Shown here one piece after another: positions 13,401-56,756 of a stretch of DNA of 64,000 bases. The stretch's first letter is position 1, and each line of letters starts with the position of its first letter. Below the pieces are notes generated by a model that was not told the origin of the DNA, did no database searches, and worked only from the letters and a program-made list of their open reading frames with translations. The position numbers and the translations under genes were made by a program. Origin of the DNA: Closterium sp. NIES-65 (taxonomy: Eukaryota > Streptophyta > Zygnematophyceae > Desmidiales > Closteriaceae); the NCBI GenBank assembly GCA_948144175.1, contig CANXME010002559.1:1364001-1428000 (forward strand). Direction: 5' to 3'.

Positions 13401-15020
13401 GGAATGGGGTGGGGGAAGGGGGCGGGGAAAGGTAGTTTAAGAAAGGGGTGGGGAAAGGGGTTTGTGCGGATGGGTAGGGGGGGACGGGCTTCAGATCAGT
13501 GGCACAGCAACGTTCACAGATCTGTGCCATTTTTTTTTTCTTTCTTTCGTTCTTTCTTTCTTTCTAAGCGGGGTGTATGCATGCATAGTTCACTGTAAAT
13601 TTCTCGCAGATGTCACAGCGGGGGATGGGGATGGCATGGCGCGCGCCTCTGCCAGTTCTAGGCGCCTCTGCTGCATGCAATCAGAATGCCACGCCAGTCC
13701 AGACATAAGCCCTCCCGGGAACAACCACTCACCAAGCGCGTTCTCGCAGATGTCACAGCAGGGGATGGGGATGGCATGGCGCGTGCCTCTGCGAGCTCTC
13801 AGCACCCCTGCACGCTACTCTCCTCACCAGGCCATTTTTACGCCCTTCCACTCACCCCTCCAGCTCAATCCACTAGTACTCACCAGGCGCGTTTTCGCAG
13901 ATGTCAATTCTACTTTTGAGAAATCTGATTTTTTTTACTACTTTTGAGAATTCTCAAAAGAACAATTCTTTTGAAAATTCTCAAAAGTAAAATCCACTCA
14001 CCCCTCCCGCTCAACCCACCACTCACCAGGCGCGTTCTCGCAGATGTCACAGCGCGGGATGGCGCGCGCCTCTGCACGCTGTACTCACCAGTCCCGCTAT
14101 AAGCACGTTATTCAGCCCCCTTAAAAGCCCCCCTAGGGGCTTATAAGGCACTCACCAGGCGCGTTCTCGCAGATGTCACAGCGCGGGATGGCGCGCGCCT
14201 CTGCGAGTTCTAAGCGCACGTGGCGGCTGGCCAGCTTGTTGCACCCATGCACCTGATGGTGGGGCGGGGGGAGAGGGAGGGAGTGGGAGGGAGACGGACA
14301 ATTGCCCTGGCGTGCTCCAGGCGCACGTGGCGGCTGGCCAGCTTGTTGCACCCATGCACCTGATGGTGGGGCGGGGGGAGAGGGAGGGAGTGGGAGGGAG
14401 ACGGACAATTGCCCTGGCGTGCTCCAGGCGCACGTGGCGGCTGGCCAGCTTGTTGCACCCATGCACCTGATGGTGGGGCGGGGGAGAGGGAGGGAGTGGG
14501 AGGGAGACGGACAATTGCCCTGGCGTGCTCCAGGCGCACGTGGCGGCTGGCCAGCTTGTTGCACCCATGCACCTGATGGGGAGGGGAGAGAGTGAGGGAG
14601 TGGGAGGGAGACGGACAATTGCCCTGGCGTGCTCCAGGTGCACGTGGCGGCTAGCCAGCTTGTTGCACCCATGCACCTGATGGGGAGGGGAGAGAGGGAA
14701 GGGAGAAGAGGGTGGGAAGGGGAGGGAGAAGAGGGTGGGGAGGCAGGGTAGGAGGTTGGGCTATGCATATTGGTCAGAGGGGGGTGGGGGGGAGAGCAGA
14801 GGGGAGCAGGCATGGGAAGAAGAGCAGTAAAGAGCCAGTCAGCACTACACTAAGTTTTTGCAAACATAGTATAATGCTGTGCAATGCAGAGCAGCGAGTT
14901 ACGAGTAGCTAGTGACGCGGCTGTTACCTTGTTATCGCATGCCAGGCATAGCGCCGCCTCGTCTGCAGCACAGAACACCTTGGCGGGCGCCGCCTCGCAC
15001 ACGTCGCACAGGATGCGCAT
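10290..15020 (-). CDS. BBX: Double B-box zinc-finger protein, BBX18/BBX19 (DBB1) type
   Basis: A plant transcription cofactor with two N-terminal B-boxes; family members act in light and circadian signalling in the nucleus. Exon 1 (15020-14928) gives [17 protein letters not shown] and the first B-box half, ending CDNK. Exon 2 (14252-14156) gives [19 protein letters not shown] and [10 protein letters not shown]. Exon 3 (13221-13106) gives [17 protein letters not shown], then [19 protein letters not shown]. Phases 0, 1 and 0 join exactly, and all zinc ligands are present. The last exon, ending at 10290, has a long Gly-rich and polyQ region and then the conserved C-terminal [10 protein letters not shown] motif. 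Each internal exon is surrounded by partial copies, and the length and exon structure of the C-terminal part (10290 to about 12480) are uncertain. The gene is much larger than plant homologues of about 200 residues. Confidence 0.88.
10463..10545. repeat. Imperfect GCT/CAG trinucleotide repeat (polyQ)
   Basis: Encodes a glutamine tract of the BBX C-terminal exon on the minus strand, just before the MIDLN motif. Confidence 0.85.
11520..12470 (-). repeat. Tandem copies of a BBX C-terminal exon/intron segment
   Basis: A block encoding [20 protein letters not shown] on the minus strand recurs at about 11520-11620, 11765-11870 and 11985-12065, with weaker copies at about 12180-12215 and 12415-12445. 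Spacing is about 220-245 bp. The purine-rich spacers between copies are also related. Only one copy is likely to be the native exon. Confidence 0.75.
12487..13023 (-). repeat. Four partial copies of BBX exon 3 (3' half)
   Basis: Copies of the segment encoding [17 protein letters not shown] plus its splice donor lie at about 12487-12560, 12660-12730, 12817-12885 and 12963-13023, downstream of the complete exon 3. Two keep a GGCGGCAAGAAGG reading, one (12660-12730) has a 1-nt change that shifts the frame, and the copy nearest exon 3 is truncated after TKKAHERY. They lack the first part of the exon and its acceptor. Confidence 0.85.
13311..13375 (-). repeat. Upstream partial copy of BBX exon 3 (5' half)
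   Basis: Encodes [20 protein letters not shown] followed by HIG and then diverges. It includes the acceptor CCCACAG but lacks the GGKKAHERY half and the donor. Confidence 0.85.
13536..13566. repeat. TTTC microsatellite
   Basis: A short pyrimidine microsatellite of TTTC units within the BBX intron. Confidence 0.85.
13600..14075 (-). repeat. Copies of the 3' end of BBX exon 2
   Basis: The sequence encoding CDICENA with its donor (plus strand CACCAGGCGCGTTCTCGCAG) recurs at about 13603-13660, 13730-13795, 13881-13906 and 14025-14072. Upstream (minus-strand) context is partly shared. The complete exon is the copy at 14156-14252. Confidence 0.8.
13941..13987. repeat. Two adjacent CTTTTGAG/CTCAAAAG palindromes
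   Basis: CTTTTGAGAATTCTCAAAAG (13941-13960) is a perfect 20-bp palindrome; a second, near-perfect one follows at 13968-13987. They lie exactly between two copies of an exon-end duplication (13850-13906 and 13993-14050). Confidence 0.9.
14210..14690 (-). repeat. Five tandem copies (about 105 bp) of the start of BBX exon 2
   Basis: Copies encoding [14 protein letters not shown], each with the acceptor CATCAG, begin near 14215, 14322, 14429, 14535 and 14640. Only the first continues as [16 protein letters not shown]. The others change to EHARAIVR and run into intron-like sequence, so they look like truncated pseudo-exons. Confidence 0.92.
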
Positions 15021-18000: not shown

Positions 18001-18123
18001 GCGTAGGCCAGGCCTTCGGTTTCTCAATATACGAAGGGTGCTTTCGGTTCCAGTGGAGGAATTCGTACATTTACAAGGATAAAACACCAGCACTACTTGA
18101 ATCTCGTTCTTCTTGCCGTCCCC
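15021..18123. other. Intergenic region between divergent genes
   Basis: It contains the 5' regions of the minus-strand BBX gene and the plus-strand EMB8/CAAX gene. A minus-strand ATG frame at 18070 (MYEFLHWNRKHPSYIEKPKA, about 69 aa), followed by another open stretch at 17930-17670 in a different frame, could be exons or remnants of an unrecognised gene. Homology cannot be judged from sequence alone. Nothing else is seen. Confidence 0.4.
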
Positions 18124-21100
18124 ATGACGCTACCTTCCTACGACCGGCCCCTTCGGGACATCGCTGCTCCTCCTAGGATCCGCTCCCGTGCAGTTTCGAG
18201 GAAAGTCCGTGCCCGACCTCACTCCTTAACGGGCTCGTTGCTAACCAGCGACCATCATTCGCCACCAGAGCTTCGCAGCAGCGTCTATGGAAAAACGCCA
18301 GGGAGGTACCAGGGAGTGGAAGTCACGACTGCTCAACACGGAGCCATTGGAACGCAGAGATTAGTGACTCTAACCGTGAGAGGCAGCTATGGGAGTGTTT
18401 CTGGCCTCTGCAAACCCAGACACGAAGATTCCGGTACCTGCTTTGGTCCCTCAAGCACTTCGTCTGCTCCACTGTTCAAGAGTGAAGTTGGTGAATCAGC
18501 TCACCATCCACTCGCCGGTTTTGCCACGTCAGCTGGCCGAGGGAGGCGGAGCAAATGGGCTCGTTTTTCGGTTTCTGTTCTACCTGCTGATTTCTCTGCT
18601 GGTGCTGGGAGCAGCAGTGACACGTGGCACGCCGTGATAGGAAGTGTTGAGGATTTAGCATTTAACGTCGCACCGGATGTTGCATTGACTGGGGCATTAG
18701 ATTCAATGGGTGACCTGCTGGTGGGAGCGGCTCTGGCTCTTTCAGGCTTTGTGATTGGTGCTGCTGTTCGTGATGTTGGCTCACTTGGTGTTGCTGCTGG
18801 CGCTGGTGCTGTCGCTGCTGCTGCTGCCGCGGGTGCTGCTGATGGTGATGACAATGATAACGGTGCTACTACTGCTACCTCTGCTGCTGCCTCTGCGTCT
18901 AGCGTTGGTCCTTGGAGATCAGATGCATCGGAGCAAGAGGAGGTTTGTGGAATAGAAGACGGAGGATGGGTGAACAGTGATTCGGAAACAGAATCAAGTC
19001 AAGGTTTGGGAATGGAAAGTGGTGCAGAGTTTTTCTTGCTGCCCGATTTTGACAAACGCGGCCTCCAGAAGTATTTTCTGGCTCGGTGCCCGTCTCTTCC
19101 CCCTGCTGCTGCACCAAACATGCTCTTCCAGAAACCGCCTGATTATGCTCCTGCTGTGAGTGCTGATGGAACCAGAAAGGCTAAAGTAGGGATCGGAAAG
19201 ACTGAGATCGGGATCGAATATACTAAGCTGCAAAGTCTCGGATTCCAACAGCAGATGCCACTTCTGGAGATTCACTCACCTCCATCTTGGGAGGGTTCTG
19301 ATGCACATAGAGAGGTAACCAATGGGAGCGAGATTCTTGGGCGGCAAGTGGACGGCGCAGCAACGCAGAGAGAGCTTTCGGGGCGGCAGCAGCTGGATGG
19401 AGCTGCAATCCAGAGGCGGCTATTTGGGCGGCACTGCATCTCCACGCCAGATGGCGGGACCTTATCCCTGGATTTTCTCAAGAACCTGCCCTCAGGTTTG
19501 TCACAGCCTATGGGATCACAACCTTCAAAGGGACATCAGGTGCAGCAGCAGCAGTTGGGGCTGAGGGAGCAGCTGAGGGCAGGTTCGGGCATGGTGGTGC
19601 TGGTGGTGGCAGGCACAGCAGCAGGCAGCGCGGACCCCTTCATTCAGCGCCTGGCGTGCAGCATTGCTGCCAGAGGCCACGTGCCCGTAGTTCTCAACCT
19701 CAGAGGATGTGGTAACAGCCCCGTTACCTCCCCACGGTGAGTGATTGTGGTGACTTTTGAGTCCATTCAAAAGGCACGGCAGCAGGCAGCGCGGACCCCT
19801 TCATTCAGCGCCTTGCGTGCAGCATTGCTGCCAGAGGCCATGTCCTCCCCGTGGTTCTCAACCTGCGAGGTTGCGGTGGCAGTCCCGTTACCTCCCCCCG
19901 GTGAGGTCGCTTGGGTGCGTGAGTGTGAGATTCTTCGGTGAGGCACTGCTGTTGGGCGTGAGGGAGAGGGGAGTCATCGGTGTGCTAAAGGCCATGTCAT
20001 TCCTGTTTCCTTGATCACCCCCCTGTGACTTCCCCCGTGACTCCCCCTGTGACTCCCCCTGTGACCCCCCCTGTGACTCCCCCTGTGACTCCCCCTGTGA
20101 CTCCCCCTGTGACTCCCCCTGTGACTCCCCCTGTGACTCCCCCGGTGACTCCCCCGTTGACTCCCCCAGTGACTCCCCCTGTGACTCCCCCTGTGACTCC
20201 CCCTGTGACTCCCCCTGTGACTCCCCCTGTGACTCCCCCAGTGACTCCCCCTGTGACTCCCCCTGTGACTCCCCCTGTGACTCCCCTTGTGACTCCCCTT
20301 GTCACTTTCCCTTATTTTGTTATCGCATTTACCATTCCCCTTGTCTCTCGTCGTGCTCCCTTCATCCCCTCCTGTCTACTTCCCTCCTTTCCCTTCTCCA
20401 TCCCCTTCACCCTCCCTCGTGTCTCCATACCTCCCCACCCGTCAGCTTCTTCTCACCAGCTGACAGCGCGGACGTGGCACTGACAGCCAATTTCCTCACA
20501 GCTTCCTACTCGGATTCCCTCCTAGTGGCCGTGGGAGTCGGCTTGGGGGGGCATGTGTTACTGAGGCACCTGGGGGAAGCAGGGAGGGGGGAGAAGGGGG
20601 AAGAACGGGGCCCGGGGGAAGCAGGGAGGGGGGAGAAACGGGGGCCGAAGAGGAGGAGGGGGAAGAGAAGGAGCGGAAAGGCAAGTGGGGAGCTGGTGGA
20701 TGGCTGGGGAGGGGCTGGGCCCGGGGGAGAGACTGGTGGTGGGGCTCAGGGGAGTTTTGGTGGTGGGTTGCTGAAGCAAGGTGGTGGGGTGTTGAAACAG
20801 GGCCGGAGAGGAGCCATGGGGCATAGGGGTATCGAAGCGGCTATTGTGGTTGACTCGCCCACCTGCTTGCACCACCACCACCGGGGCTGCTCCTCTTTTG
20901 AGTCGACTCAAAACCACCACCGGGGCTGCTCCTCTTTTGAGTCGACTCAAAACCACCACCGGGGCTGCTCCTCCAATCATCTCTGCCCTGACGAGGAGGA
21001 AGACGTTTCCAGGAAGATGGTCCAGGATTACCAGCATCTCCTGTGCACGCATGAGGTTGTGCTACTTGCCCTCAACACTCCCTTCCCACACACTCCCCAC

Positions 21101-24100
21101 TCCCTACTCACCACCCACCAGCCTTTGACCCACACCCTCTCCCACCCGCACTCCCCTCCAACCGACCTCCATCACTCCCGCATTCCACAGTCATTTATGC
21201 GTATCTCCTCTCCCTGCCATATGGTTGGGTGAGTGGGACCCATTCATCACACGATGCATCGTTTTCACATGTACATGGCTTTAGATGTCTCAAAAGTACA
21301 TGGCATCCTCTTCATACAGGAAAGTCGTAACTACCAATGCTCGCCTTCTCTGCCACACTCCCTTTTGAGGCGCCTCAGAAGCCATCCATCATACGATGCA
21401 TCGTTTACACATGTACATGGCATCCTCTTCATATTGGAAAGTCCTTAGTACCAATGCTCGCCTTCTCTGCCCACCGTCGCCCTCCTCAGATGATATTTTC
21501 TGACGCGTGGGGCCCTCACGAGCCTTTCGACCTGTCAGCAGCGCTGGCAGCTTCGTCGCTCAGCCAATGGGACGACGCTGTGTCACGCCGTGCCCTGGGC
21601 TGCGGGTCGATCTCAACGTTTTATGCTGCGTGCTGTGCGTGTGGTGTGCTGGAGCACGTGTCTGTGCCCACTCTGTGCGTGCAAGTGAGTGGGTGAGGTG
21701 GGTGGGGTGATTGGGTTAGCTCTTAAGTATTGGAAGACTCAACATGTCTGCGTTTTATGCCGCATGCTGTGCGCGTGGTGTGCTAGAAGGTGCATCAGTG
21801 CCCGCTCTGTGCGTGCAAGTGAGTGGGAGGGGAAAGGGCAAGGGGCTGGTTCTTGAGAGAGATTAAGCAGCCAGTATGGGCTAGGGGTTGACCTCGGCGA
21901 TCTACGATGACTGCTGTGTGTGTGGTGTGCTGGAAGACATATTGGTCCCCACTCTGTGCGTGCAAGTTGAGTGGGTGGGGTGACTGGGTGGGTTGTTTCT
22001 TGGGTGTTGCACGAATCAAAGTGTCAATGCTTTACGATGCATGCTGTGCGCATCGTTCGGTGGAAGCCGTATTACTCCCCATTCTGTGCGTGCGAGTGAG
22101 TGGTAAAGAGGGGGAAGAGTTTGGACATTGCACAGGAATGGGTTTCAGCTGCATCCCAGCTCTCGCCCTTCCCATACCTCACGTGCTCCTTCTCATGTGG
22201 GCTCTTTGTTGTGTGTTCTGGTTCGTTTCTTTGAGCAGAGAGGGAGTGTAATTGCAGGGAGCAGCACTGCGTGCGCCACTGCTGTTCCCTCCTCGTCCTC
22301 TTCCTCCTCTGAGCCTTCTGTCTGGCGGCCCTTCCTCACCAACTGCAACCTCTCTCTCTGTGTACTCTCCAACACAAGAACTGTTTCGAACACTGCTGCT
22401 GCCGCCGCTGCTGCTACTGCTGATGGTGATTCTCCTAATGGTCCCGTTGCTGCTGCTGCTGAAGGGATCGGTTCGTCTGTTCCTCTCTCTTCCGCTCATG
22501 CCTGGGCTCCTGATTTCACCAACCGTGTTCTGCAAATCGTGGATGAGGTGGGTGAGTGAGTGTGCACGGTATTGTATCGAACAGGTGCGTACCCTGTATT
22601 GGCGGGCTCTTGAGGATTCTCAAACGTCAGTCTGCTCATGCCTGGGCTCCTGATTTCACCAACTGTGTTCTGCAAATCGTGGATGAGGTGGGTGAGTGAG
22701 TGTGCACGGTATTGTATTGAACAGGTGCGTACCCTGTATTGGCGGGCTCTTGAGGATTCTCAAACGTCAGTCTGCTCATGCCTGGGCTCCTGATTTCACC
22801 AACCGTGTTCTGCACATCGTGGATGAGGTGGGACTGCATCGTACAGGCCAGCCAGCCAGCCAGCAGCCGCTGTTTCCCAGTTGGCATGCCGTGGTTGAAT
22901 TGAACCTGCTTGTAGCGCATCGTACAAGACCAGCCCTTGCATGGAGGGAAATGAACATACTTTTGAGGCACCTCAAAAGTACAAGCCATGGTTGAACTGA
23001 ACCTACTTGTAGCGCATCGTACAAAAACAGCCCTTGCATGGAGGGGAACGAGCATATGATGAATCGTGTCTCGGTCAGTCAGCCGTTTCATCCGTTCACT
23101 CCCCTTCCTTGGCCCCTGCCATTTCCCTTCCCTTCCCTCCCCGCCCCTGACTACCCCCGCGTGCAGTGGTTACCAGCTGTCGAGAGTGCTCTGCTGCAGC
23201 AACGACTGAGGGATTTCAGGCGTGGATACTTGGTAAACTGTACGTCTGACCCTTCCCCCCATCGACCCCTCATGCTCCCCTCTCCCCCTTGTTTCCCCTT
23301 CCAACCACTCACTACCCCCGCATGCAGTGGTTACCAGCTGTCGAGAGTGCTCTGCTGCAGCAACGATTGAAGGAGATCAAGCAAGCGCGGGACAAGGTTA
23401 AACAGGGCAAGAGGAGGGCATCAGCAGCAGAAAGCCGAGACTGGAGGCATCACAGTGACAAGCAGCACACAGGGGAAGCGAGAGAGGGTTGGGGAGTGAG
23501 GAGTGCTGGAGAAGGAAAGGGGAACACAGGAGCAGGGAGTGCAGGGGATGGAGAGGAAGAGAGGAGTGGGCATGCATTGGAGGCGCCTCCTGACGGCAAT
23601 GCTTTAAACTCTCCTTCTCCACCCACATCACCATTTTCACCTGACGATACACCTGCTCAACCTGCCCCTCAACTTGCCCAACCTGCCCCTCCGCCTGTCC
23701 AAACTGCCCTTCAGCGTGCCCCTGAACCTACCCAACTTACTGCTGGGTCTGCTCAACCCTCCCCTCCGCTTGTTCAAGCTGCTTCTCCCTCCATCCAACT
23801 TGCCCCTCCGCCTGCCCCTCGATCCGCGCAGCCTGCTTCTCTGCCTGCCCAACCTGCTGCTCCGTCTGTCCAACCGGCCAGTGCATCGAGCCAACCTGTC
23901 TCAACACCTGCGACTGGTGCTGGCAGTTCTGCTTCAGCAGCCTCGTTAGGTGCTCCTTCAGGTGCTGCTGGGCTTGCTCAACCTTCCCCTCTGCCTGCCC
24001 AACCTGCTGCTCCTTCTGTCCAACCGACCAACACATCGAGCCAACCTGTCGCAACAGGTGCTGCTTCAGTTGCCTCCTTAGGCGCTCCTTCAGGTCCTTC

Positions 24101-44346: not shown

Positions 44347-44426
44347 GATGAGATGGGATGGGATGGGATGGGATGGGATGGGATGGGATGGGATGGGATG
44401 GGATGGGATGGGATGGGATGGGATGC
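44347..44426. repeat. (GGGAT)n microsatellite
   Basis: About 15 units of a pentanucleotide repeat. Confidence 0.97.
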
Positions 44427-45018: not shown

Positions 45019-45076
45019 TGCGATGCAGGATGTGTGCGATGCAGGATGTGCGATGCAGGATGTGCGATGCAGGATA
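45019..45076. repeat. GATGCAGGATGTGC short tandem repeat
   Basis: Four imperfect units with 13-18 bp spacing. Confidence 0.85.
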
Positions 45077-45153
45077 GCAAGGACTGTTAAGACAATCTCT
45101 GCGACTCCACTTCCAAGCCAAATGTGCGGCTCATTTTCAGAAAACAGGTTATT

Positions 45154-45432
45154 TGTTATGAGTTGTATGAAAGAAGAGTGTGCAGAATGCAATATCGCGG
45201 AAGTGATTACAACTACTGAGCAAACATCGGGGCCTAGGCATAATATAGCAAGGCTAGCTAAGCCTGAGGTCGCGAAGTCGTGCGAGGTTGGGTGTAGGTT
45301 TGGGTTTGGGAAACCCGAAGGCGACGCGGAGGACGTTCGGGAGGCGAGGTCGTCGGACCGAGCCTGAACTCCGAAAATTGGAAATGTACGCGTAAGCGGT
45401 GCCTCAGTAAGGAATTAGGAAAATTCCTTACA
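45154..45432 (-). repeat. 3' LTR
   Basis: Begins TGTTATGAGTTG and ends ATTCCTTACA; 279 bp. Confidence 0.96.
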
Positions 45433-45446
45433 CTACCCCCCCCTTC
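45433..45446 (-). other. Polypurine tract
   Basis: GAAGGGGGGGGTAG on the minus strand, directly adjoining the 3' LTR and overlapping the pol stop codon. Confidence 0.9.
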
Positions 45447-48327
45447 AAGAAAGCTGGTCAATATCAGGCACGTGTCGGCGAGAAAGATACTGCCGGAGTA
45501 CCGAGTGCCCTTGTAGTGAGTCAGCTGGGACCCACGTGTCGTCTTCACTTGTGCGATCTACCCAACGTAAGAGAAAATCGACGTGGCGGCCGGCTGGGGT
45601 CGCACGAATGCGATGATTCAATATCTTCCAGGGCTGGAGCGTGGGATCTGCTACCGGTCGGACACTGGGCGCCTGGTGGGGTCGAGCGACGTCGGGGGAC
45701 TGGGGTGCCACGTAGTGGCGAAGCAAACTGACGTGGAAAGCGTCGTAGATATGCCAGTCGTCCGGGAGGAGAAGCTTCGCAGTGACCGGTGTCAGCATTC
45801 GAACGATGCGGAAAGGTCTCACGTATCGAGGACGCAGTTTCGCGGGCTGGGGCAGTCTGAGGTTTTTGGTGTCCAGGAGGACCATCTGCCCCTCGCGGAA
45901 GGGTAAATTCCGTCGATGTTGGTCAGCGTAGCGGCTGGCGGTCGAATTCGCTTTTCGGATAAAGTCAGCTGCCTTGGCACGCGCGTCCTGGAGTTCCGAA
46001 ATAAACTGCTGTGACCTGGGTACCGGGTTGTTGGGAGTTGTCGATGAGGGTACCACCGGGTCTATCCCGTGATTCAGGTAGAATGGTGATTGCTTGGTCG
46101 TTGCAGATGGGGCGTTATTGTACGCAAACTCGAGCATGGGAAGAGAATCTTCCCACTTGGTGATGTCCGGGCAGTTCGTGCGAATCAGCTGCTCCATCGT
46201 TTGATTTGTCCTCTCTGTCTGTCCGTCGGTTTGCGGGTGGTAGGACGACGAAAATTGCAGGCGGGTGCCGTACTGTGCCCATGTCTCCTGCCAAAATTTT
46301 GACGTGAATTTCGGATCTCGATCGCTGATGATCGCCGAAGGTAACCCGTGGAGGCGTACGACGGTGGAGATGAAGAGTCGCGCTGTTTCTTCGGCTGTGA
46401 TCGTTGTACGGCAGGGCGCGAAATGAGCCATTTTCGTTAAGCGATCAACGACGACGAGCACGGAGTCGTTGCCACTTGCGCCAGCTGGAAGGCCCGTGAC
46501 GAAATCCATAGTCACCTGTTGCCACGGTCGTTCGGGTGGCTCAAGGGGCTGCAGTAAGCCAGCTGGTCGTTGTCGTGATGACTTCATTGCCTGGCAGGTC
46601 GGGCAGGCGGACACATAGCGCTGCACGTCCGACGCCATGTCGGGCCAGTAGTAGTTCCGCTGCAGCAGCTTCAATGTTTTGTCGACGCCGAAATGCCCGG
46701 AGAGGTTGGAATCGTGTACTTCTTGCGTCAGCAATTCGCGTAAGGGTCGGTAGGAAGGTACCCAAACTCGGTTAGTACCGACTTTTAGGTAGTAACTTCC
46801 ATGCGGTGTAGTGACCCCGCGGTGTTGACTGGTCCTGAAAAATCTGTCGATCCTGTAGCCGTGCTTGAACAATCCTGTCAATAAAGGGTTGGAATGGGCG
46901 ATTAGTACTGCTGCGGTCTGCATGGATGGGCGGGTCAGGGCGTCGGCGATGTTGTTGGCGCTCTTTTTATATGTGATGGTGTAGCGAAAATTCGATTCGA
47001 GGTAGTCGATCCACCGGATTTGTCGTGGGTTGAGCTGTGGTTGGTTGCGCATGTACTGTAGTGATTTGTGGTCAGTTCGGATTGTGACATCCGCTCCCGT
47101 GAGGTAGCATCGCCATGTTCGAAACGCATGCACGATGGCGAGCATTTCCTTGTCGTGAACCGGGTAGTTGCGCTCGGGCGGCTGCATTTTTCTTGACTCG
47201 TACGCGATGGGTTGCAGTCCGTTGCTGAAGTCCTGTAGTAGCACAGCGCCGACAGCGAAATCGCTGGCGTCCGTCACGACTTCGAACGGTCGAGATGGAT
47301 CTGCCAGTCGAAGCACCGGGGGTGAACTCAAAATTTTCTTCAGCTCGTTGAAAGCCAGCTGTTCTCTCTCCCCCCAAAGAAACTGCACGCCCTTATGCAG
47401 GAGATCGGTTAACGGCCTGGTTACCCCCGCCATATTGGGGACAAAACGGCGGACGTAGTTAACGAAGCCGAGGAAACTCTGCAACTCAGTGATGTTCGTG
47501 GGCGGCATCCACTCCGAAATCGCTTTTATTTTACGAGGGTCGATTTTAATGCCTTCCCCAGAGACGACGTGCCCTAGAAACTCCAACCCCGACCGTAAGA
47601 ACTCGCACTTAGAGCCCTTCGTAATCAGCCGGTTCTGCTGCAAGCGCCGGAACACTTCGTCCAAATCTTGTAAATGCTGCTCCCGTGTCCTGCTGTACAC
47701 CAGGATGTCGTCCAGGTAAACGATAACTTTTTTATCCAACATGTCGCGAAACACCCCATTCATAGTGAGCTGGAACGTCGAGGGTGCGTTCGTCAGCCCG
47801 AACGGCATCACGGTGTACTCATAACTGCCGTAGCGGGTTCGGAATGCGGTCTTCGGGCAGTCGTCGGCGAACACCCGAATTTGATGGTATCCACCTCGCA
47901 AATCGATTATCGAGAAGAAACGAGCCCCGCGAAGTTGATCCAGCAGGTCGTCTGTTCGTGGGATCGGGTAACGCGACTTGATTGTGACCCGATTCAACGC
48001 TCGATAGTCGATGCACATGCGCAGGCCTCCGTCCTTCTTCGGTGTGAATAGTATCGGGGCGGCGTACGGCGACGTGCTCGGCCGGATAAAACCCTTAGAA
48101 AGCAGATAATCCAGCTGTTTCTGCAATTCGTCGAGCTCCGGTTGGCTGAGCCGCCATTGGGACCGAACGGTTGGTTTCGCGCCTGGCTCCAGCTCGATCC
48201 TGTGGTCTTCCGGACGCTGAGGTGGCAGCCCATCAGGTAGGTCATCCGCGAATATTTCGGGGTACCTCTGAATTATGCTCGCCACGTCGTTGGGTACAGC
48301 AGCGCAGAGCGTGTCGATGTCGGCGAT
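45445..48327 (-). CDS. pol: Pol: reverse transcriptase, RNase H, integrase, chromodomain
   Basis: The conserved frame starts at about 48327 (ADIDTLCAAVPNDVASIIQR); there is no ATG, so it is expressed only as a fusion. Reverse transcriptase motifs include FIRPSTSPYAAPILFTPKKD, SIIDLRGGYHQI and the catalytic YLDDILVYS. RNase H: EVVTDASDFAVGAVLLQ and IRTDHKSLQY. Integrase: zinc motif H..H..CPTCQAMK, catalytic MDFVTGLP, ISDRDPKFTS and YHPQTDGQTERTNQ. The C-terminus ILNHRIRATPAGRHVDFLLR followed by W..DDTWVPADSL is a chromodomain, which in chromoviruses directs insertion into particular chromatin. The frame is open to its natural stop next to the polypurine tract. Confidence 0.95.
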   Translation of the reverse strand: MADIDTLCAAVPNDVASIIQRYPEIFADDLPDGLPPQRPEDHRIELEPGAKPTVRSQWRLSQPELDELQKQLDYLLSKGFIRPSTSPYAAPILFTPKKDGGLRMCIDYRALNRVTIKSRYPIPRTDDLLDQLRGARFFSIIDLRGGYHQIRVFADDCPKTAFRTRYGSYEYTVMPFGLTNAPSTFQLTMNGVFRDMLDKKVIVYLDDILVYSRTREQHLQDLDEVFRRLQQNRLITKGSKCEFLRSGLEFLGHVVSGEGIKIDPRKIKAISEWMPPTNITELQSFLGFVNYVRRFVPNMAGVTRPLTDLLHKGVQFLWGEREQLAFNELKKILSSPPVLRLADPSRPFEVVTDASDFAVGAVLLQDFSNGLQPIAYESRKMQPPERNYPVHDKEMLAIVHAFRTWRCYLTGADVTIRTDHKSLQYMRNQPQLNPRQIRWIDYLESNFRYTITYKKSANNIADALTRPSMQTAAVLIAHSNPLLTGLFKHGYRIDRFFRTSQHRGVTTPHGSYYLKVGTNRVWVPSYRPLRELLTQEVHDSNLSGHFGVDKTLKLLQRNYYWPDMASDVQRYVSACPTCQAMKSSRQRPAGLLQPLEPPERPWQQVTMDFVTGLPAGASGNDSVLVVVDRLTKMAHFAPCRTTITAEETARLFISTVVRLHGLPSAIISDRDPKFTSKFWQETWAQYGTRLQFSSSYHPQTDGQTERTNQTMEQLIRTNCPDITKWEDSLPMLEFAYNNAPSATTKQSPFYLNHGIDPVVPSSTTPNNPVPRSQQFISELQDARAKAADFIRKANSTASRYADQHRRNLPFREGQMVLLDTKNLRLPQPAKLRPRYVRPFRIVRMLTPVTAKLLLPDDWHIYDAFHVSLLRHYVAPQSPDVARPHQAPSVRPVADPTLQPWKILNHRIRATPAGRHVDFLLRWVDRTSEDDTWVPADSLQGHSVLRQYLSRRHVPDIDQLS

Positions 48328-48981
48328 TTTTTTCGGAAGCCACCACCTCGTACAGCTGTACGGCGTAGCCCTGCGCTCCCCGTTTAATCGCCCTCTTCAT
48401 CGTTATCGCGTTGACACGTGTTGTCGTCGGCTCCGGCTCCGCCCATTTCGGAAGTGTCACGCGCCCCTTGTTGCACAGCACCGTGATCGCTCCCGTCGTC
48501 CAGACGATGGTCGGATTGAAACGCTGCAGCCAATCCCTTCCGAGCAGCACATCGCAACCGTCCAGCGTTGTCGCCAACATCCGCATGGAGAACCCGAAAT
48601 CGTCGCCACACTTCATCCGAATTTGTCGGACCTCGTCCTTGATCGCCAGCGGTGTTCCGTCCACCAATCGCGCATCAATCTCTAGTAGACACCTGTCCAG
48701 CTTGACTCCGATTTTTTTGGCCGTCGCTAGGTTGACGAGACTGTGGCTCGCCCCACCGTCGACGAATAATTTCATTTTTTTCCCATTAACCCTCCCCACG
48801 ACCAGCACAGTGTGATCCACGTGTTCATCCACTTTATTCGTCCGGTTGCGGCCGATAGCCCGTATCGGTACCACCACTCGGTGTGGATGTTGATTGCCGG
48901 GCGACGGGGTCTCGTCAGTAGGTGGCCCGACTGCTACTGACTCGTCTCTTTTCCGGACCCCTCTCCGTCGTTCCTGTTTCC
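48242..48981 (-). CDS. Retropepsin-like protease region
   Basis: Frame entered from gag by a -1 shift near 48976-48982. It contains LFVDGGASHSLVNLATAKKI (active-site D-G-G-A in place of the common DSGA) and DVLLGRDWLQRFNPTI, the retropepsin flap and second conserved region. The frame continues to a stop at 48242, but conserved sequence moves to the +1 frame at an A7 run (48327-48333). It processes the Gag-Pol polyprotein. Confidence 0.85.
48327..48333 (-). other. A7 homopolymer at the protease to reverse-transcriptase frame change
   Basis: Seven A residues on the minus strand. Protease homology ends in one frame before it and reverse-transcriptase homology resumes in the +1 frame after it. 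This could be an indel in the homopolymer, a sequencing error or a slippage site. Confidence 0.7.
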
Positions 48982-50100
48982 CTGTTTCAGCTTCGGGCAG
49001 TCCTTCTTCCAGTGGCCCGGTTGGTTGCAGATGAAGCAGTTGTTGTTTCCCCGCCTCGGTGCATCCACCCCGTTGATTGTGGGCTGGCGCGGCGGTCCGC
49101 GGAATTGAGTGCCCTCCCGGGAACTCATTCTCGCCCATTGCATCAGCGCATCCGTTGATTCGGCCACCCGGACGGCTTCGATAAATACGCGTGGCCTCGC
49201 CCGTCGCACCTTGTACTGTACTTCGTACTTGAGGCCTGCGACGTATCGGTCGAGTCGTTTCGCGTCGCTCATGTCGTCCACTTGGTCAGCCAAATTGCAG
49301 AACGTCGCTGTGTAATCTTGGACCGACGCCACCTGCTTCCAGGTACGCAGCTTCATGCGAGCAGAATCCGAGGCGGATACATGCTCGAATCTTCTTCGCA
49401 GCGCGGCGCCCCACTCCGTCCATGTGCGTATCGTGGCCACTCCGAAGATTGCAGTTGCCTGTTGCGTGACAGTTGTCCAGGTCCCGTCGTTCGCACGTGA
49501 TATCCCTGCCGGAGCCCCCTCTGGCTGAAGAGTTCGCTTCCACCATTCCAACGCCGGTCCTCGTAATAGTGACACTGCAAAATTAATGCGGGTAGCATCG
49601 TCAGCAATTTGCGCAGCATTAAAAAACACCTCTACGCCGAACAACCAAGCTGACACAGTGACGGTTTTGTCGCTGGGATTGAACGGGGGCGGGTTCGTCG
49701 GTTTAATTTTAACAGTTGTTGAGGCTGTTGCTGTTGCATGCATCGGGGGCGCCATTGAAGCCATCACCGGGATTGTCGCTGTTGCCTGTCGTGGCGTCGT
49801 CTGCGACTGTTGCCTCGGTTGTGACTGTTGTTCCTGCGTCCCTTGTGCTCGTCGCGTTCGTGCTGCCCGCTCGTCTTCAGCGTCCAGCGAGTTCTGTAGC
49901 TCGCTGAGGACCTCGTCGTTAGGCACGAAACTGCTCCCTGCTTCATCCACGACGGGCGACTCCTGACGCGCTTCACCTCGCGTCTGGCGTAGCTCGGCGT
50001 TTTCCTCCCTCAGGCGCTCCAACTCGCCAGACATAGTCTGCATGTTGGCCTGCAGCGCCCGAAACTGTTGCATGAGCTCGTTTAACTCCGCCTGGTCCAT
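48934..50100 (-). CDS. gag: Gag with CCHC zinc knuckle, 388 aa
   Basis: The ATG at 50100 begins MDQAELNELMQQFRALQANM, a coiled-coil start typical of plant gypsy Gag. The capsid region includes VSAWLFGVEVFFNAAQI, FAVSLLRGPALEWW and YTATFCNLADQVDDMS..RYVAGL. The nucleocapsid knuckle CFICNQPGHWKKDC fits CX2CX4HX4C. The protein forms virus-like particles and packages RNA. The frame stops at 48934, 42 nt past a G_GGA_AAC site. Confidence 0.95.
   Translation of the reverse strand: MDQAELNELMQQFRALQANMQTMSGELERLREENAELRQTRGEARQESPVVDEAGSSFVPNDEVLSELQNSLDAEDERAARTRRAQGTQEQQSQPRQQSQTTPRQATATIPVMASMAPPMHATATASTTVKIKPTNPPPFNPSDKTVTVSAWLFGVEVFFNAAQIADDATRINFAVSLLRGPALEWWKRTLQPEGAPAGISRANDGTWTTVTQQATAIFGVATIRTWTEWGAALRRRFEHVSASDSARMKLRTWKQVASVQDYTATFCNLADQVDDMSDAKRLDRYVAGLKYEVQYKVRRARPRVFIEAVRVAESTDALMQWARMSSREGTQFRGPPRQPTINGVDAPRRGNNNCFICNQPGHWKKDCPKLKQGNRNDGEGSGKETSQ
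48976..48982 (-). promoter_or_regulatory. Candidate -1 ribosomal frameshift site G_GGA_AAC
   Basis: The minus-strand heptamer GGGAAAC lies in the gag frame as CAG GGA AAC, exactly the X_XXY_YYZ phase. A -1 slip gives QERRRGVRKRDESVAVGPP, which is the protease frame. It is positioned just after the zinc knuckle, inside the gag/protease overlap. Confidence 0.6.
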
Positions 50101-50289
50101 GTGTCGCAGGCTTCGTCTAACGGGCAGGGGGTTAACAACGATTTTTCTGGTTTTGATGAAGGCGCAAACGCTATTAGTCGGAGCGAGATAATCGTATCTA
50201 TCTCTCAGCCGACCGCTTTGCAGCCCACCAAACCTATCGCACCCCCGTACTAAACTACCCCGGAAAGTGGAGGGTAACCTAGGAAAGTA

Positions 50290-50301
50290 GCTCTGATACC
50301 A
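50290..50301 (-). other. Primer-binding site (initiator Met tRNA)
   Basis: TGGTATCAGAGC on the minus strand, two bases inside the 5' LTR; perfect match to the plant consensus. Confidence 0.95.
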
Positions 50302-50303
50302 GG

Positions 50304-50582
50304 TGTTATGAGTTGTATGAAAGAAGAGTGCGCAGAATGCAATATCGCGGAAGTGATTACAACTACTGAGCAAACATCGGGGCCTAGGCATAATATAGCA
50401 AGGCTAGCTAAGCCTGAGGTCGCGAAGTCGTGCGAGGTTGGGTGTAGGTTTGGGTTTGGGAAACCCGAAGGCGACGCGGAGGACGTTCGGGAGGCGAGGT
50501 CGTCGGACCGAGCCTGAACTCCGAAATTTGGAAATGTACGCGTAAGCGGTGCCTCAGTAAGGAATTAGGAAAATTCCTTACA
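50304..50582 (-). repeat. 5' LTR
   Basis: 279 bp. It differs from the other LTR at GTG(C/T)GCAG and CCGAAA(T/A)TTGG. Confidence 0.96.
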
Positions 50583-50587
50583 TTATT

Positions 50588-50866
50588 GGACCTGGTAGCG
50601 CTGTTACTGGAGGTAACGTGAATTCTACATTATTATCTAACTTGATCTCTTGTTACCCTATGAGGACTTTTGGGTTCTTGGTCAGTGCTGAGTCATCCTG
50701 ACCTTTACTCCCAGGTGGCCAAGATGTGAAACCAGGCCAGGCCAGAGGTCCAGAGCTTACAACTTTCACTTCATTTCCACATGCCTGCCCACATGCCAAA
50801 TCCTGGTGCACGAGGGAAGCTTCCTAGTGCACCATCTCAATGTGTTCCATCCCATGCTCTCGGCAC
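50588..50866. other. Short intergenic region between retrotransposon and kinase A
   Basis: 3' flank of the kinase gene; nothing recognised. Confidence 0.5.
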
Positions 50867-53800
50867 TCATGCACACGTCCTTTTAAAACCATGGGAAAAG
50901 CAGGGTCTAAGCACAGCTTCTAAATCTTTAAGACGGACTGGCTTCGTGAGAAAAGCGTCCATTCCTACACGTGCGCACTTGTCGCGTTCATGATTGAGCG
51001 CACTTGCCGTTAGTGCAATGATTAACGGTCTGCTTAGCGTCCTTGAAGGATTGAAGAAGTACATGTCGTTGCTGCTAACAATTGCACCATGCCCTGACTG
51101 CCTTCCAGAAGCTGAAGAATCGCCGCTGTTTGTATCAGAAATCTCGCGAATCCTTCTAGTCGCCTCAAACCCATCCATTTCGGGCATGTGCACATCCTGC
51201 AAAAGAAATTCCAGGCAAGAGCAAGAGACGAGTGAGGGAGGAGTGAAACAACTGGTTACTGAACCAACCGCATGATCCCAAAGGACATCGAAGGCGGAAG
51301 ACCCTGAACCACAGAAAAGGGACCACCGCAGACGAGGGACCACCGCAGTTTGTATCGTAACAACCACAAAAAGGCAACAGTTGCATGTAGCTGAAACTCT
51401 ATATCGTAGTTACCATAATTGCCCACCGCATCTCACCATGAAGATGACGTCATACTCCTTGGCTTGGCATGCTGCCACGGCCTTGACCCCATCCTCTGCC
51501 ACGTCACAGGTGACCTGCAGGCTGCCCAGCAGCCTCACGACCACCATTTGGTTCACCGGATTGTCCTCCACCACCAGACACCTCAGCCCGGCAAACGATT
51601 GCAGCTCTACCGATGGAGAAGAGGAGCGCACCGCTGCCGCCGCTGCCACTAGAGAAAAGGACTCCCAAGAGGCCGAATGAGGCAATGCTGCCAATGATGC
51701 TGCTGATGGTGCTGCTGATGGTGCTGCCATTGGCGCTGCCAACAGTGCTGCTGATCGTGCCAACAGTGCTGCCAATGGTGCTGTCAATGGTGATGGGGGA
51801 TTAGAGATTCTGGGTGCAAGACCGTGAGGAACCAATGCCGCCATAGTAGGTGGAATGGCAGGTGGAGCTGTGGATGAGGGCAGAGCGGAGAGCTCAGGTG
51901 AATTGGCAGGTGAAAGTGTGTATGCACCGCTGCCGCTACTGGCAGTGGCAGCTGGGAGCTGAGTGCACGGAGAGAGGAATGGTACGGAAGTGGCTGGATG
52001 TAGCCGGCTTGACAGATGGTTGTCAGGTACAGGGGAGTCACATGGAACAGGCATCTGTACTTGGCCTTCTCCCACAGTCGCTCCTGCAGTCCCACCTGCC
52101 CCACCTGCCCCACCGGCCCCAACTGCCCTAACTGCCCCACCTGTCCCACCTGCAGCTGCGACACTCCCTGTGACTCCACCACACTTAGCAACAGCACAAG
52201 TATCCGTGACCTCAGGGGAATCGAAGCAGCTCCCAGTGGGGAGAGTGAAGGGCAGGGCGAAGGAGAAGCAGGAGCCATGGCCTGGGCGGGAGGAGGCGGA
52301 GATGGTGCCCCCCATGAGCGTCACTAGCGACCTGCAGATGGCCAAGCCCAGCCCCGTGCCCCCGTACCTCCTTGAGGTGGACTTGTCCGCCTGCAGGGTT
52401 TGAGGTTTAGGGGGTGAGGCAGCGGGAGAGAGTGCAAGGAAGCGGAAATGGTGCCTCCCATGAGCGCCACACAAGAGACCTGCAGATGGCGATACCCAGC
52501 CCCGTGCCTCCGTCCCTCCTCGCGGTGGACTTGTCCGCCTGCAGGGGAAGAGGAAAGGGATGGAGGGAGAGGAGAGGAGCAGGGAGGAACAGAAAACGGA
52601 AGAGGAATGGGGCCAACCAGACAACCTCAGCGAGATGAAAGGGTCACTGGCAAAAGAGAAAACAAGGACGGAACTCGTTCGGTGTGCTTACACGAGTGAA
52701 GAAAGCGCGGGAGGAGATATACAGGCAGGGAAAACAAGGAATAAGATTAGGGGGTGATCGAAGTGAGGGCCATCAGCTGCGTGGCCGCACCTGTGTGAAA
52801 GGCTGGAACAACTTTGGCAGCATCTGCTGTGGAATGCCGATCCCAGTGTCTGTCACTTCAAAGCACACTGTAATTGCCCGCGCCTTCTCCAGGGAAAGGG
52901 ACCTGATCATCAAATTGCCATTCTCAGGAAGGCATGCAGATGCAGCTTGCTTCTCCGAGCTGGTTGCTCTGGCTATGTCTTCATGTTGTGACTTCCCTGC
53001 AGAGCCTTCAGCTGCAAGGTTAGCATCTGCTAATACAGGTGGGTGTGATTGCTCTTGCGGTGAAACAGCAACTGCCGCTGCTGGTGATGGATCTGATGGA
53101 TCTGATTGCTCCCGTGGCACACCCGCGGCGGGTGCCAGGCCAGCACTCAGCGCACTCAACTCTTGAGACGCCTCAAAAGCCATGCCTGCTGCTGCCATAG
53201 AGGGACTTGATTGCTCCTCCCGTGAAACCTCTGCTGCTGTTGGCCGACCTCGCTGCTCCTGTGAAACATCTGTTGCTGCTGACGGGCCTGATTGCTCCTC
53301 CTGTGGAACATCTGCATCAGCTGACGGCCCAGCAGACACATGCTCGCAGCAACCTCCTTCACTTGGTACTCGTGCCTCGCCGTTTCTCTCTCTCTCCTCT
53401 GGCACACTGCCATGTTCTTGGAACCCGTTTCCAGCTCTAGAAGTCCCCATTCCTGCCATCTTTGCAGCACCTAGTCTTTCCAACGCCTGCTTCTGCAAGG
53501 AATCACTCTTCTTTCCAAATTCGTATCCTGCCCTGTCGCCCCCCTTCCCCCCCTCCTCAGATCTCGCCCTCTTCTTCGCATCATCCTCTAATCCTGCCAT
53601 CCCTTCACCCGTTCCCCATAACACTCTCTTTCGGCTGGGTTTTGTCGGAGATGCTTTGGGTTCTAGTGACGATGCACGAGGATTCGCTGACGCAGTTTCG
53701 GGCTCTGCTGAGGCTGCTCCTTGTTCTGCTGACAAGGCTTGTGGGTCAGCTTTCACTGCATCTGGCTGTGCTGACGCTGGTAGAATTTCAGCTGCTATTG

Positions 53801-56756
53801 ACAGGCTCACACGCACTTTCACATGGCCCCTGTTGCAAGGAAAAGGGAACACGGGTTGTTAATATGTATCAGCAAGCACGTGGAGTTGAATTCAACAAAA
53901 AACACCTGAGAATGAAGAATCCTTATGTTTCCATTCACGACATGCACATCTCTTCTGTCCTGCACTCTGACTGCCCAGCCTGACGTGCCCGAGAGGAAAC
54001 GCATGCCTCGACTCGACAGGTCAAGCACTTACCTGGAAGTGAACTTGATGGCGTTGGAGAGGAGATTCAGCAGCACCTGGCGCAGCCTGCTGGGGTCCCC
54101 AACCACAAGCGAGGGCACGGCTGGATCCACGTCAACGAGGAGCTGAATGCAGGGCGGGCAGCATGGCATGTCCGTGCATGAGGAAAAGATAGGAGGAGAC
54201 ATGTACGTAGTAAGAGGGAGGGGTGGGCGGAGACGTGTGAAGGGTAAGAAAGGGAGAAGGGAAGAGACCTGTGCATGTCAAAAAAAAGGAGGAGACAGAC
54301 TGGCACAAGTGTGAGAATCATGTGAGGGCGGAACAGGAGAAGCAATTGTGGCAGCAGAGGAATGAGATGCAGCAGGGGATGGGGAGAATCCTTCAAGAAA
54401 CAGGAAGCACAGAAAGGGGGGAGGGAGATCCAGGGCTGCGAGCGAGACAGAGAGCAGAGCAGACACCTGGATGCCCTTTTGCAGCACGAGCACATGCACG
54501 GTCGATTCCGCTTCAGCCACCACAGCCCGCAGGTTGAACGGAACGGCCTCCAGCTGCAGCGAGTGCGCCTCCATCTTGCTTATATCCAGCACGTCCGATA
54601 TGATCCTCAGCAGCGAGTCCCCCGACGTGCGGATTACCTGCATTGACGACAACAAACAAGCACCGACTGAGCCTCCATCTTGCTTCTATCCAGCACGCCT
54701 CATACACTTTTGAGTCGACACAAAAGCATCTTGCCAATATCCAGCACACCGGATATAATCCCCAGACAGTGAGTTCCCTGACAGCAAGCCCCCAGTGAAT
54801 CACCTCGAGGAGCGACCGTTGCTCGTTGCTCAGCGGGGTTTGCAACAGCAGGTCTGCTACACCGATGACGCCATTCATGGGGGTGCGGATCTCGTGGCTG
54901 ATTTTGGCGAGGAACTCGCTCTTGGACGCGTTGGCGCGCTCCGCGTTCTCCCGCGCCTTGAGCAGCGCCTGCTCGTGCTGCTTTATGTCTGTGAGGTCGT
55001 GCCACACGGTCACAAAGTGGCTGCGCCCGTTGGCTTGCACGCACTGCCAGGTTAGCGTGTGGGGGAGGGGGGAAGCGTGTGGGGGAGGGAGGGATGGGGG
55101 GTGAGAAGGGAGGGGCAGGGTGGGGTGGGAGAGGTGTGCGTGCAGGGAGAGAGGGGTTGGGAGGGGTGTAGTGTAGTGTAGGTGATTGAAATGAGAAGAC
55201 AGAGACCCACGTAATCCAGTGCCCATGATCCCGCGCAACAAGCACACTTCAGGGACCATGCCCCAGACCACATCACACATGCCACACCCTGAACTCACGA
55301 ACCTAGCGCACCTGAACTTTTACTAGGACCGGAATGAGGGTTTTATCCGACGCATAGTGCCACCACTCGCCAATGGCAGAGCCTCCTCCTGAGAGCACCG
55401 GGCGGCTGAACTGAGCCAACTTGTCGGCAGATCTTGTCCCGTCTGGCTGGAACTCGGGCGTCAGGCTGGCAACGTCTACCTTGCCTGCAATCTCGGATTT
55501 ATCCTTGAATTTCAGGATCTTGACGGCTGCTTCGTTGCATTCCTGAATTACCATGTCGTCAGAAACGATGAAAACCGGGTCCTGAGGCAAGCAGGTTGAG
55601 GGATTGAGGCACGGAGGACGCTCCATGCAACGGATTAAAGTAGATAAAAAGCATCACAAATGTGGTGGAAAGTGCCAGTTCTAGGATCCAACATGCAGTG
55701 TAACCCCAATTCTCACAGGCTTGATATCTATTCCATTGCACACATTAACGTGAGCCTTACCATGGACATTTCAAATATTCTTCTGAACTTCTCATTCTCC
55801 TGCCCTGTCTTAAGAGTCTCTTCAACCAGTTTCAGCCGGTGCAGAAAGGTATCTGGATTTTCAAACAATGACGGAGGATCAAACTCTCCAAATGATGCTC
55901 CGCAGAGCTTGAAGCACCTTCTGAGCCCTCCCAATAGTTGCTCCTGTAACAGTTACAGTTAAGTTGGACAGACTACTAGAAGTGGTAAGGTCAGAAAGGA
56001 AACAGATCAGAGCAGCTTGCCTCACGAGGTATTCCTTATGCTTCATAAAAGGCAAAAAGGAAACAGGAAAAAAGAAGAACCGAGAGAGAGGTACAGTGAA
56101 AAAAAATACAGAGTACACACAATGTGCAGGCAGTGGTTTCGTCGCTACGTACTTCAGCAGTTTTCCGCGTGGAGATGTCATGGAACACGCAACAATATGA
56201 CGAGACTGGCCCATCCGCGGAATTTGCTAGGACCGGTTTCATGGAGACATCGAACCATGCAGTGCCGCCATTGTGACATCTCAGGCGAAGCTCGAACGCT
56301 GCTTTTTGGAGAGCCTTCTTCAGTGCACTCTGTGGGAAATGAAACGGCAACACAAGCTTGGATCAAGAGATCATGATTTGAGATTTTACTGATACAATCC
56401 AAGGGACGGCGCCTATATGGTACTCTCTAGGGGACACAGTGCACAGACACTCGGAGATGGATGTACGTGCCTGAAAACGGCTCCTGTGGTTGCAATCTAT
56501 GATCTCTTCGAACGGACGATGGATGATATCGCACTGGTCATAACCAAGCACTTTACAAAACGCCGAACTGCAGGAAAAAAAACAGTCAAGAATCTCTCAA
56601 CGGTAAAACCGTGAAGAGTAATGTTGATGCATCGTTGCGAAATACTGGAGCACGTGCAGCAGCACACCTGCAATCTGTTATATCCCCGTGCGTAGATATA
56701 AGGGCGACGCAAGCTACATCTGAAAGCGCCGGCTGTTGTGAGTCACGCAATGCCAT
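50867..56756 (-). CDS. PAS-containing hybrid histidine kinase A (PHK-like)
   Basis: A two-component sensor kinase with about 12 exons. PAS-like region 1: [12 protein letters not shown], then [20 protein letters not shown] and [17 protein letters not shown] 2: [20 protein letters not shown] to [19 protein letters not shown]. Phosphoacceptor H-box: [20 protein letters not shown]. ATPase: N box [19 protein letters not shown]1 [12 protein letters not shown] box FQPFTQ, G2 [16 protein letters not shown]. Receiver: [42 protein letters not shown]; all catalytic residues are present. The start is uncertain (ATG 56756 is the best seen). It has a low-complexity insertion of about 300 residues before G1 and a frameshifted spare copy of the G2 exon. 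Architecture and sequence resemble the PAS-histidine kinases of mosses and liverworts. Confidence 0.88.
52455..52545 (-). pseudogene. Decayed duplicate of the kinase A G2-box exon
   Basis: Encodes [20 protein letters not shown] after an acceptor CTGCAG, like the intact exon at about 52395-52310. The copy has a 2-nt length difference (GTGTGGCGCTCATG versus GTGACGCTCATG) that breaks the frame before ALMGGTIS. Confidence 0.85.
53155..53345 (-). repeat. Degenerate coding repeats with GAGACGCCTCAA palindrome
   Basis: Repeated [14 protein letters not shown] / [16 protein letters not shown] units of about 50 bp lie inside the kinase A insertion. TCTTGAGACGCCTCAAAAG (53161-53179) lies at the border of the repeat array. 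Confidence 0.8.
54568..54850 (-). repeat. Triplicated kinase A exon segment with palindrome
   Basis: CATCTTGCT..ATATCCAGCAC occurs at about 54577, 54677 and 54727. The first copy is the intact exon ([13 protein letters not shown]). CTTTTGAGTCGACACAAAAG (54707-54726) separates copies 2 and 3. Parts of the flanking TGCGG..TTCACCTCGAGG also repeat. Confidence 0.88.

Follow-up and report, generated by a model that had tools for sequence, protein, structure and literature searches.

What process leaves short, near-identical palindromes between the two copies of local tandem duplications, again and again in the same DNA? The question is raised by a window of 64 kb (the whole stretch of DNA analysed; GC 0.557, no N, many tandem repeats), which we infer from its sequence to come from the nucleus of a desmid that is Closterium or close to it. 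The initial annotation listed 12 such palindromes in the window, and all 12 positions are borne out, with corrections at single sites. In the following, P denotes the palindrome, D the local duplicated segment, W a window site and L0xx a stretch outside the window.

The motif, TTTTGAG-N4-CTCAAAA with up to two mismatches, was searched in the window and in 30 further 10-kb stretches of the assembly, giving a pooled 356.5 kb. Of these stretches 21 come from contigs C1–C21 and 9 were added later, 6 of the 9 lying on contigs with known matches; one stretch (L045) is N at 7,500 of 10,000 bases. A set of 24 stretches picked without looking (232.5 kb) forms a blind sample. The window holds 14 matches against 0.13 expected, a number that 0 of 100 shuffles reach, and 8 of the 30 outside stretches contain the motif. 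The blind sample contains 33 matches, which reduce to 14 independent events once arrays are collapsed, with 1.1 matches expected (10 Markov resamples). The motif is therefore found in excess across the 356.5 kb, where the idea that it is no commoner than composition predicts had been put up for testing. For counting, matches with identical letters within 700 bp were merged, leaving 33 independent palindromes (25 at one mismatch or fewer); overlapping palindromes of one compound site (W13942/13969 and L035:5031/5079) stay as separate rows.

The palindromes are closely associated with direct duplications that meet them flush. This was measured by a dovetail score, in which the end of the left flank is aligned to the start of the right flank, a score of at least 15 counting as a flush duplication. 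By this measure 23 of the 33 independent palindromes are flanked by a flush direct duplication. The same holds for 53 of 567 other palindromes of the same DNA (arms of 7 bases, up to one mismatch; Fisher p 3e-15), for 2 of 21 scrambled-arm matches (60 motifs; Fisher p 1.6e-5) and for 21% of 3,000 random positions (binomial p 3e-9), the random-position rate exceeding that of other palindromes (9%) owing to the abundance of tandem repeats in this DNA. The expectation that the flanks are duplicated more often than those of controls is consequently upheld. A stricter local-alignment rule (score at least 40, both gaps at most 15) is passed by 4 of the 15 window sites (19755, 22608, 22961 and 42442) versus 2.1% of positions. 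A search blind to the motif finds 120 non-redundant spaced local duplications (gap 8–60 bp), of which 7 have a strongly palindromic filler (score at least 7); all 7 fillers are this motif, and a few more of the 120 contain it in decayed form.

The duplicated segments vary widely in length, from ~9 to 140 bp (~9, 11, 15, 21, 24, 28, 53, 60, 69, 75, 117, 133 bp and others), and some sites have none. Their copies are ~73–100% identical across sites, and this combination of variable length and diverged copies argues against a target duplication of fixed length as well as against an artefact. As the dovetail alignment can extend D past its true ends (e.g. at L035:3287), lengths from local alignment or by eye are preferred; at L035:3287, 4183 and 5908 the best local alignment pairs with another part of the neighbourhood, and the short D was judged by eye. 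As a control, IMG/VR also contains the exact 20-mer, in 26 stretches that include near-duplicates, with no flanking duplication as far as the flanks allow (longest common word 11; one stretch has a left flank too short to judge). Beside these sites, an exon-like stretch with its donor forms about four tandem repeats at 21596–22117 (73–78% identical) that carry no palindrome, and local duplication here therefore also occurs without one.

The make-up of the palindrome is itself informative. The core is self-complementary in 26 of the 33 (20 of 25 at one mismatch or fewer), whereas shuffling gives a mean of 8.0 and 0 of 100,000 shuffles reach 26; among the IMG/VR copies of the exact 20-mer the proportion is 5 of 26 (Fisher p 6e-6). 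The cores do differ, as was first described, but the supposed variable 4-bp core is better seen as four symmetric classes (TCGA 11, GCGC 7, AATT 5 and ACGT 3), the whole 18–20-mer being the palindrome. Of the seven asymmetric cores, a single change separates GCAC (2), GATT, TCCA, GCGT and ACGC from a class, but not AACG. The arms are often extended by GAC or GTGAC on the left and by GTC on the right, with ragged outer ends. Exact half-sites more than 14 nt from a motif match (up to 3 mismatches) number 12 in the pooled DNA, versus about 11 (10.9) expected, by a hand calculation, from 8-mer frequency; one of the 12 is half of a palindrome cut at the start of L053, one lies in the compound site 13907–13992, and the filter also excluded 57580, near a weak 3-mismatch match. 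The simplest reading is that the unit is the half, and that the palindrome is formed by joining two identical halves.

Three events (W21280, L035:4183 and W54708) are matched by paralogues in which D is single and the palindrome absent, which points to insertion of the palindrome and not to its prior presence. For W21280 this empty site is the other outer copy of the duplication in which it is nested, which by eye has a single GTACATGGC and no palindrome. The empty-site paralogues of L035:4183 are two neighbouring copies, from 4350 and 4526, and that of W54708 lies at 54556–54626. Three L055 matches for L053:63 (76% identical, inside an L055 array) were rejected as similar repeats, not empty sites. 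The protein joined from four putative exons (18124 to ~22560) has one significant match, a protein of Closterium sp. NIES-54 (P0121) with 65% identity over 60%, and this match does not include the palindrome array. Closterium strains with long-read assemblies (NIES-53, NIES-54, NIES-64, NIES-65, NIES-4550 and NIES-4552) are named in PMC10407611, and the title of PMC5736609 mentions Cas9 knockouts in Closterium.

How might such a structure arise? We give about an even chance to the view that D-P-D is the product of a single repair event at a staggered break, whose ends are filled in and joined through a palindrome of two identical tails. A double-strand break with offset nicks would leave complementary single-stranded ends of ~9 to 140 nt, and fill-in of both would provide each end with a copy of D. 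The ends would then be joined via an insert of 18–24 bp, not directly, giving D-P-D. The insert would consist of two copies of one ~10–14 nt tail (consensus (GTGA)CTTTTGAG-N-CG, or -AA), set head to head and paired by self-complementary ends, and so would be built, not captured ready-made. By slippage or unequal exchange, the new direct repeat could later grow to D(PD)n, a new minisatellite. A stagger of zero length is allowed by the model, for palindromes without duplication. Observed here in its support are the recurrence of the palindrome, the flush duplication, the variable D, the symmetric classes, the lack of an excess of lone halves, the empty-site paralogues and the arrays.

The initial annotation had offered two branches, a mobile palindrome or a hairpin-primed or end-joining process that duplicates its target. 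The link between palindrome and duplication on which both rest stands (23/33 flush, three empty paralogues), and the choice of branch is not settled. End joining is favoured because of the variable D (~9–140 bp), the palindromes free of duplication (e.g. the perfect L055:3689), the ragged edges, the extra bases and the fillers with several palindromes. Snap-back from the local flank as the sole origin is rejected, as the arms are common to unlinked loci; an inverted flank is visible, by eye, at L053:194. A bolder proposal, which we regard as possible rather than probable, is that Closterium-type desmids have a dedicated process that makes or spreads a self-dimerising DNA tail of ~10–14 nt. The product would be a new class of micro-element (~20 bp, non-coding) that inserts at break ends, duplicates up to ~140 bp of target and seeds minisatellites and in-frame peptide repeats; its symmetry would follow from the way it is made, both halves being copies of one half-length template. 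Among the matches listed from the open-licence literature, the titles and abstract openings describe no element with these arms or this arrangement.

Several observations weigh against repair through paired tails. If duplication and palindrome were of one age, the divergence of D and the decay of P should correlate, and they do so weakly (rho 0.37, p 0.049, n=28; at two mismatches or fewer, rho 0.20, p 0.37, n=23). A search of the 356.5 kb revealed no donor or template of the tail. A telomere-type source likewise finds no sign there, contig ends not being covered: no array of at least three TTTAGGG, TTAGGG or TTTTAGGG, nor of at least two TTTTGAG, is present. The doublet of CTTTTGA occurs twice, both times in L035 filler, and apart from this no short unit is repeated in tandem within the insert. 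Judged more loosely, by flank similarity with no flush junction required, the sites are unremarkable (3 of 15 window sites lie above 95% of 1,268 grid positions) because the DNA is very rich in repeats. Most of the 120 spaced duplications have unrelated, non-palindromic fillers, and the palindrome is therefore no general feature of the tandem duplications of this genome. Ten of the 33 palindromes, including the perfect L055:3689, score below 15 for flush duplication; these are compatible with blunt breaks, with lost copies or with a palindrome that came first, and are open to all three readings. Finally, the motif is clustered, all 14 blind events falling in 4 of the 24 stretches.

The main rival, in our estimate unlikely but to be taken seriously, is a true mobile micro-element. 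The palindrome would be a minimal, internally deleted element with terminal inverted repeats (TIRs), inserted in trans by a widely staggering enzyme, and D a long target-site duplication of variable length. The same arms at unlinked loci, the four symmetric subfamilies and the empty-site paralogues all agree with this, and the 86-bp AT-rich insert at 13907–13992, with imperfect terminal inverted repeats of ~20 bp (by eye), could be a longer form. A full-length form of such an element would have terminal repeats CTCAAAAG...CTTTTGAG, and longer copies the ends CTCAAAAGTCAC...GTGACTTTTGAG. However, some palindromes lack a duplication, some have extra bases at their edges and some form concatemers, and lone ends, which a longer element would give, are not in excess in the 356.5 kb. 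Copying as DNA should, in addition, have produced asymmetric subfamilies in the lineage, whereas asymmetric cores make up 7 of 33 and six of these are one change from a symmetric class, although hairpin correction between the arms could mask such subfamilies. In addition, we know of no transposase or integrase with duplications of ~9 to 140 bp.

It is less likely still that the palindrome came first, whether as a site of binding or cleavage or as an earlier insertion, and that its hairpin stalled the replication fork and led a template switch to copy the neighbouring sequence to the other side. Hairpins are replication-fork barriers, arrays expand at some sites, and no flush duplication is present at L055:3689, L044:9169, W41426 and W53161, all of which this order of events accommodates. 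Flush copies on both sides with outer ends free of palindrome are harder for it, as the palindrome must then be copied once and skipped once. The paralogues of three sites, moreover, have neither palindrome nor second D, and other palindromes of the same DNA are seldom so flanked (53/567).

The footprint of an excised DNA transposon, i.e. two terminal repeats around a 4-bp spacer left by imprecise excision, fits the arm-N4-arm layout; it leaves the duplications of ~9 to 140 bp unexplained and separated half-sites are not above background in the 356.5 kb, making it a very improbable source. Chance, or an assembly or library artefact such as an adapter dimer or chimeric reads, can be practically dismissed: library chimeras can yield palindromic inserts between repeats, but the copies have diverged to ~73–98% at most sites, several core classes exist, palindromes carry mutations and an open reading frame crosses one array, while the motif counts and the flush-flank and core statistics exclude chance.

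The single window sites (all on the + strand) illustrate the variety of D-P-D structures. Dovetail scores of at least 15 are reached at 19755, 20896, 21363, 22608, 22961, 42442 and 54708, and duplications also flank 20935 and 22748 (both array copies), 21280 (nested) and the compound 13942/13969. The count of at least eight palindromes lying exactly between copies therefore holds, except that 19755 and 42442 have 12–13 bases between copy and palindrome. In the compound site a 60-bp left duplicate (13847–13906) is 88% identical to the 57-bp right duplicate (13993–14049; flank alignment). The AT-rich filler between them (13907–13992, 86 bp) contains a half-site at 13913 and the palindromes 13941–13960 and 13968–13987, both with core AATT. 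At the next site the left duplicate (19612–19741), a putative exon end with donor GGTGAG, is 88% identical to the right duplicate (19773–19905; flank alignment), and the filler (19742–19772) comprises 12 extra bases followed by the palindrome 19754–19773, with core TCCA, one change from TCGA. Nearby, at 20019–20306, a 12-bp unit (CCCCCTGTGACT) is repeated 24 times in a putative intron.

Two D-P-D-P-D arrays are present in the window. The first (20875–20973) has a D of 21 bp and P TTTTGAGTCGACTCAAAA at 20896–20913 and 20935–20952, with units 100% identical; an open reading frame crosses it and its translation repeats HHRGCSSFESTQN (FESTQN). The second (22491–22832) has a period of 140 and copies 97% identical, and is made up by two additional sites with imperfect arms, the palindromes 22608–22625 and 22748–22765 (TCTTGAGGATTCTCAAAC). 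Between the two arrays, a left outer duplicate (21240–21354) is 92–93% identical to the right one (21382–21471; flank alignment), with the palindrome CTTTTGAGGCGCCTCAGAAG between them at 21362–21381. The left copy is broken by a nested small event (21271–21304, by eye), in which the palindrome TTTAGATGTCTCAAAA at 21280–21295 is flanked by GTACATGGC at 21271–21279 and 21296–21304. The palindrome listed at 21279 is accordingly present, but it is shorter and imperfect, has its own 9-bp direct repeat and, with more than two mismatches, is outside the 33 counted.

The remaining sites range from simple to bare. At 22960–22981 the filler is the palindrome CTTTTGAGGCACCTCAAAAG plus TA and nothing else, between a left duplicate of 75 bp (22885–22959) and its 88% identical right counterpart (22982–23056; flank alignment). 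Duplicates of 69 bp (42360–42428 and 42461–42529; 86% identical, flank alignment) enclose a 32-bp filler (42429–42460) with the palindrome TTTTGAGACGTCTCAAAA at 42442–42459. Adjoining this site, two different 16-bp minisatellites stand side by side at 41632–41994 (22.7 copies) and 42038–42279 (14.8 copies). The D-P-D at 54675–54758 consists of duplicates 54675–54707 and 54726–54758 (73% identical) around the palindrome 54708–54725. The palindromes listed at 41425 and 53161 are present, as an imperfect one with core ACGT at 41426–41443 and as TCTTGAGACGCCTCAAAA at 53161–53178, but neither has a clear flanking duplication (local scores 18 and 28; dovetail 0). A 2-mismatch match at 25441, without duplication by local alignment or dovetail, could be due to chance, in a part of an open reading frame that is itself repeated.

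Outside the window D-P-D structures are found at L035:2576 (D 53, copies 96% identical), L044:9679 and L029:4763 (each D 24, 88%), L048:6375 (94 columns, 82%), L049:7158 (58, 90%), L053:63, L053:4656 (40, 97%), L055:3856 (20, 100%) and L055:6171 (33, 97%). D is by eye ~11 at L035:3287, ~28 at L035:4183 and ~15 at L035:5908. At L035:5031–5079 (D 54, 94%) the filler is three palindromes in a 24-bp period. Two arrays are in L055, D(24)(PD)x11 from 6431 and D(46)(PD)x9 from 8454, with D at both ends; as their units are 96–100% identical, these arrays are recent. At L053:185–220 a palindrome with core AATT lies by eye between 9-bp inverted, not direct, repeats (TGCAGGGTG / CACCCTGCA) and adjoins a tandem array of that flank. 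L035:6108 has a duplication of 87 bp (82%) around the filler GAGACTCAACTCAAACGTCA..., perhaps what is left of a palindrome whose core was longer.

The duplicated palindromes were first described as lying in four different genes, a number that is putative. Among 15 window proteins compared with Pfam, those of the palindrome-bearing genes support a histidine kinase locus and give a sub-threshold hint of an alpha/beta-hydrolase. The former (51410–55298, − strand) contains a histidine kinase gene in fragments (HisKA, HATPase_c, Response_reg). One exon-like stretch of it is copied locally, and the original may be the copy at 54556, i.e. the one that carries a single D and no palindrome. A Ty3/gypsy element with gag and chromodomain-type pol open reading frames occupies 45445–50391 (− strand), and part of it reaches 93% identity with proteins of Closterium sp. 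Yama58-4. The best matches of its pol frame (45445–48285, − strand) are from Closterium sp. Yama58-4, NIES-53, NIES-54, NIES-67 and NIES-68, for example 85% over the full length and 93% over half.

The palindrome would serve as a sequence tag for events that are normally anonymous, marking where a tandem duplication arose by repair, how long the stagger was and how a minisatellite came into being. Should the tail be templated by RNA or made by a polymerase of its own, a genome would have a new route to recurrent insertions without a transposon; the template, if an RNA (a small RNA or telomerase RNA), would contain GACUCAAAAGUCAC.

Among known systems, miniature inverted-repeat transposable elements (MITEs) and other short TIR elements have a short target duplication of fixed length and are usually at least 50 bp long. 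The sites described here resemble them in having inverted repeats and a target duplication, but the palindrome is only ~18–24 bp and the duplication varies in length, so that no fixed, family-specific length is seen, and some sites have no duplication. The short palindromic repeats of green algal organelle genomes, for instance Volvox, called apparently selfish in the excerpted report (PMC2670323), are alike in being abundant in green algal DNA; they are organellar and from another lineage, and the likeness is one of description only. A closer parallel is fill-in by CST-Pol alpha-primase followed by end joining, which in human and mouse cells gives small tandem duplications where the overhangs of a break are complementary (Schimmel et al., 2021; PMC8355091). 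In that system, in the part of the account drawn on, as in the model proposed here, a short direct duplication of the break site precedes end joining and no repeat or homology is needed. Here too the junctions have a locus-specific direct duplication of variable length (D ~9–140 bp, 23/33 flush). There, however, near-blunt ends are described as joined directly, whereas here a recurrent palindrome of fixed sequence stands at the junction. In the horse, breaks have received telomeric repeats, and at a few of the loci the target is directly duplicated as well (Santagostino et al., 2020; PMC7215372). These interstitial telomeric sequences share with the present sites, to the extent of the excerpted text, a recurrent short insert gained in one step, empty sites (orthologues there, three paralogues here) and target duplication. 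They differ in that their insert is the telomeric repeat, ascribed to telomerase or telomeric RNA, and duplication is reported at a few loci, whereas here a palindrome is inserted, without any trace of a telomere-type array in the 356.5 kb, and flush duplications are frequent (23/33). By analogy, the closest counterpart of the D-P-D sites is an insertion of this kind with a non-telomeric insert.

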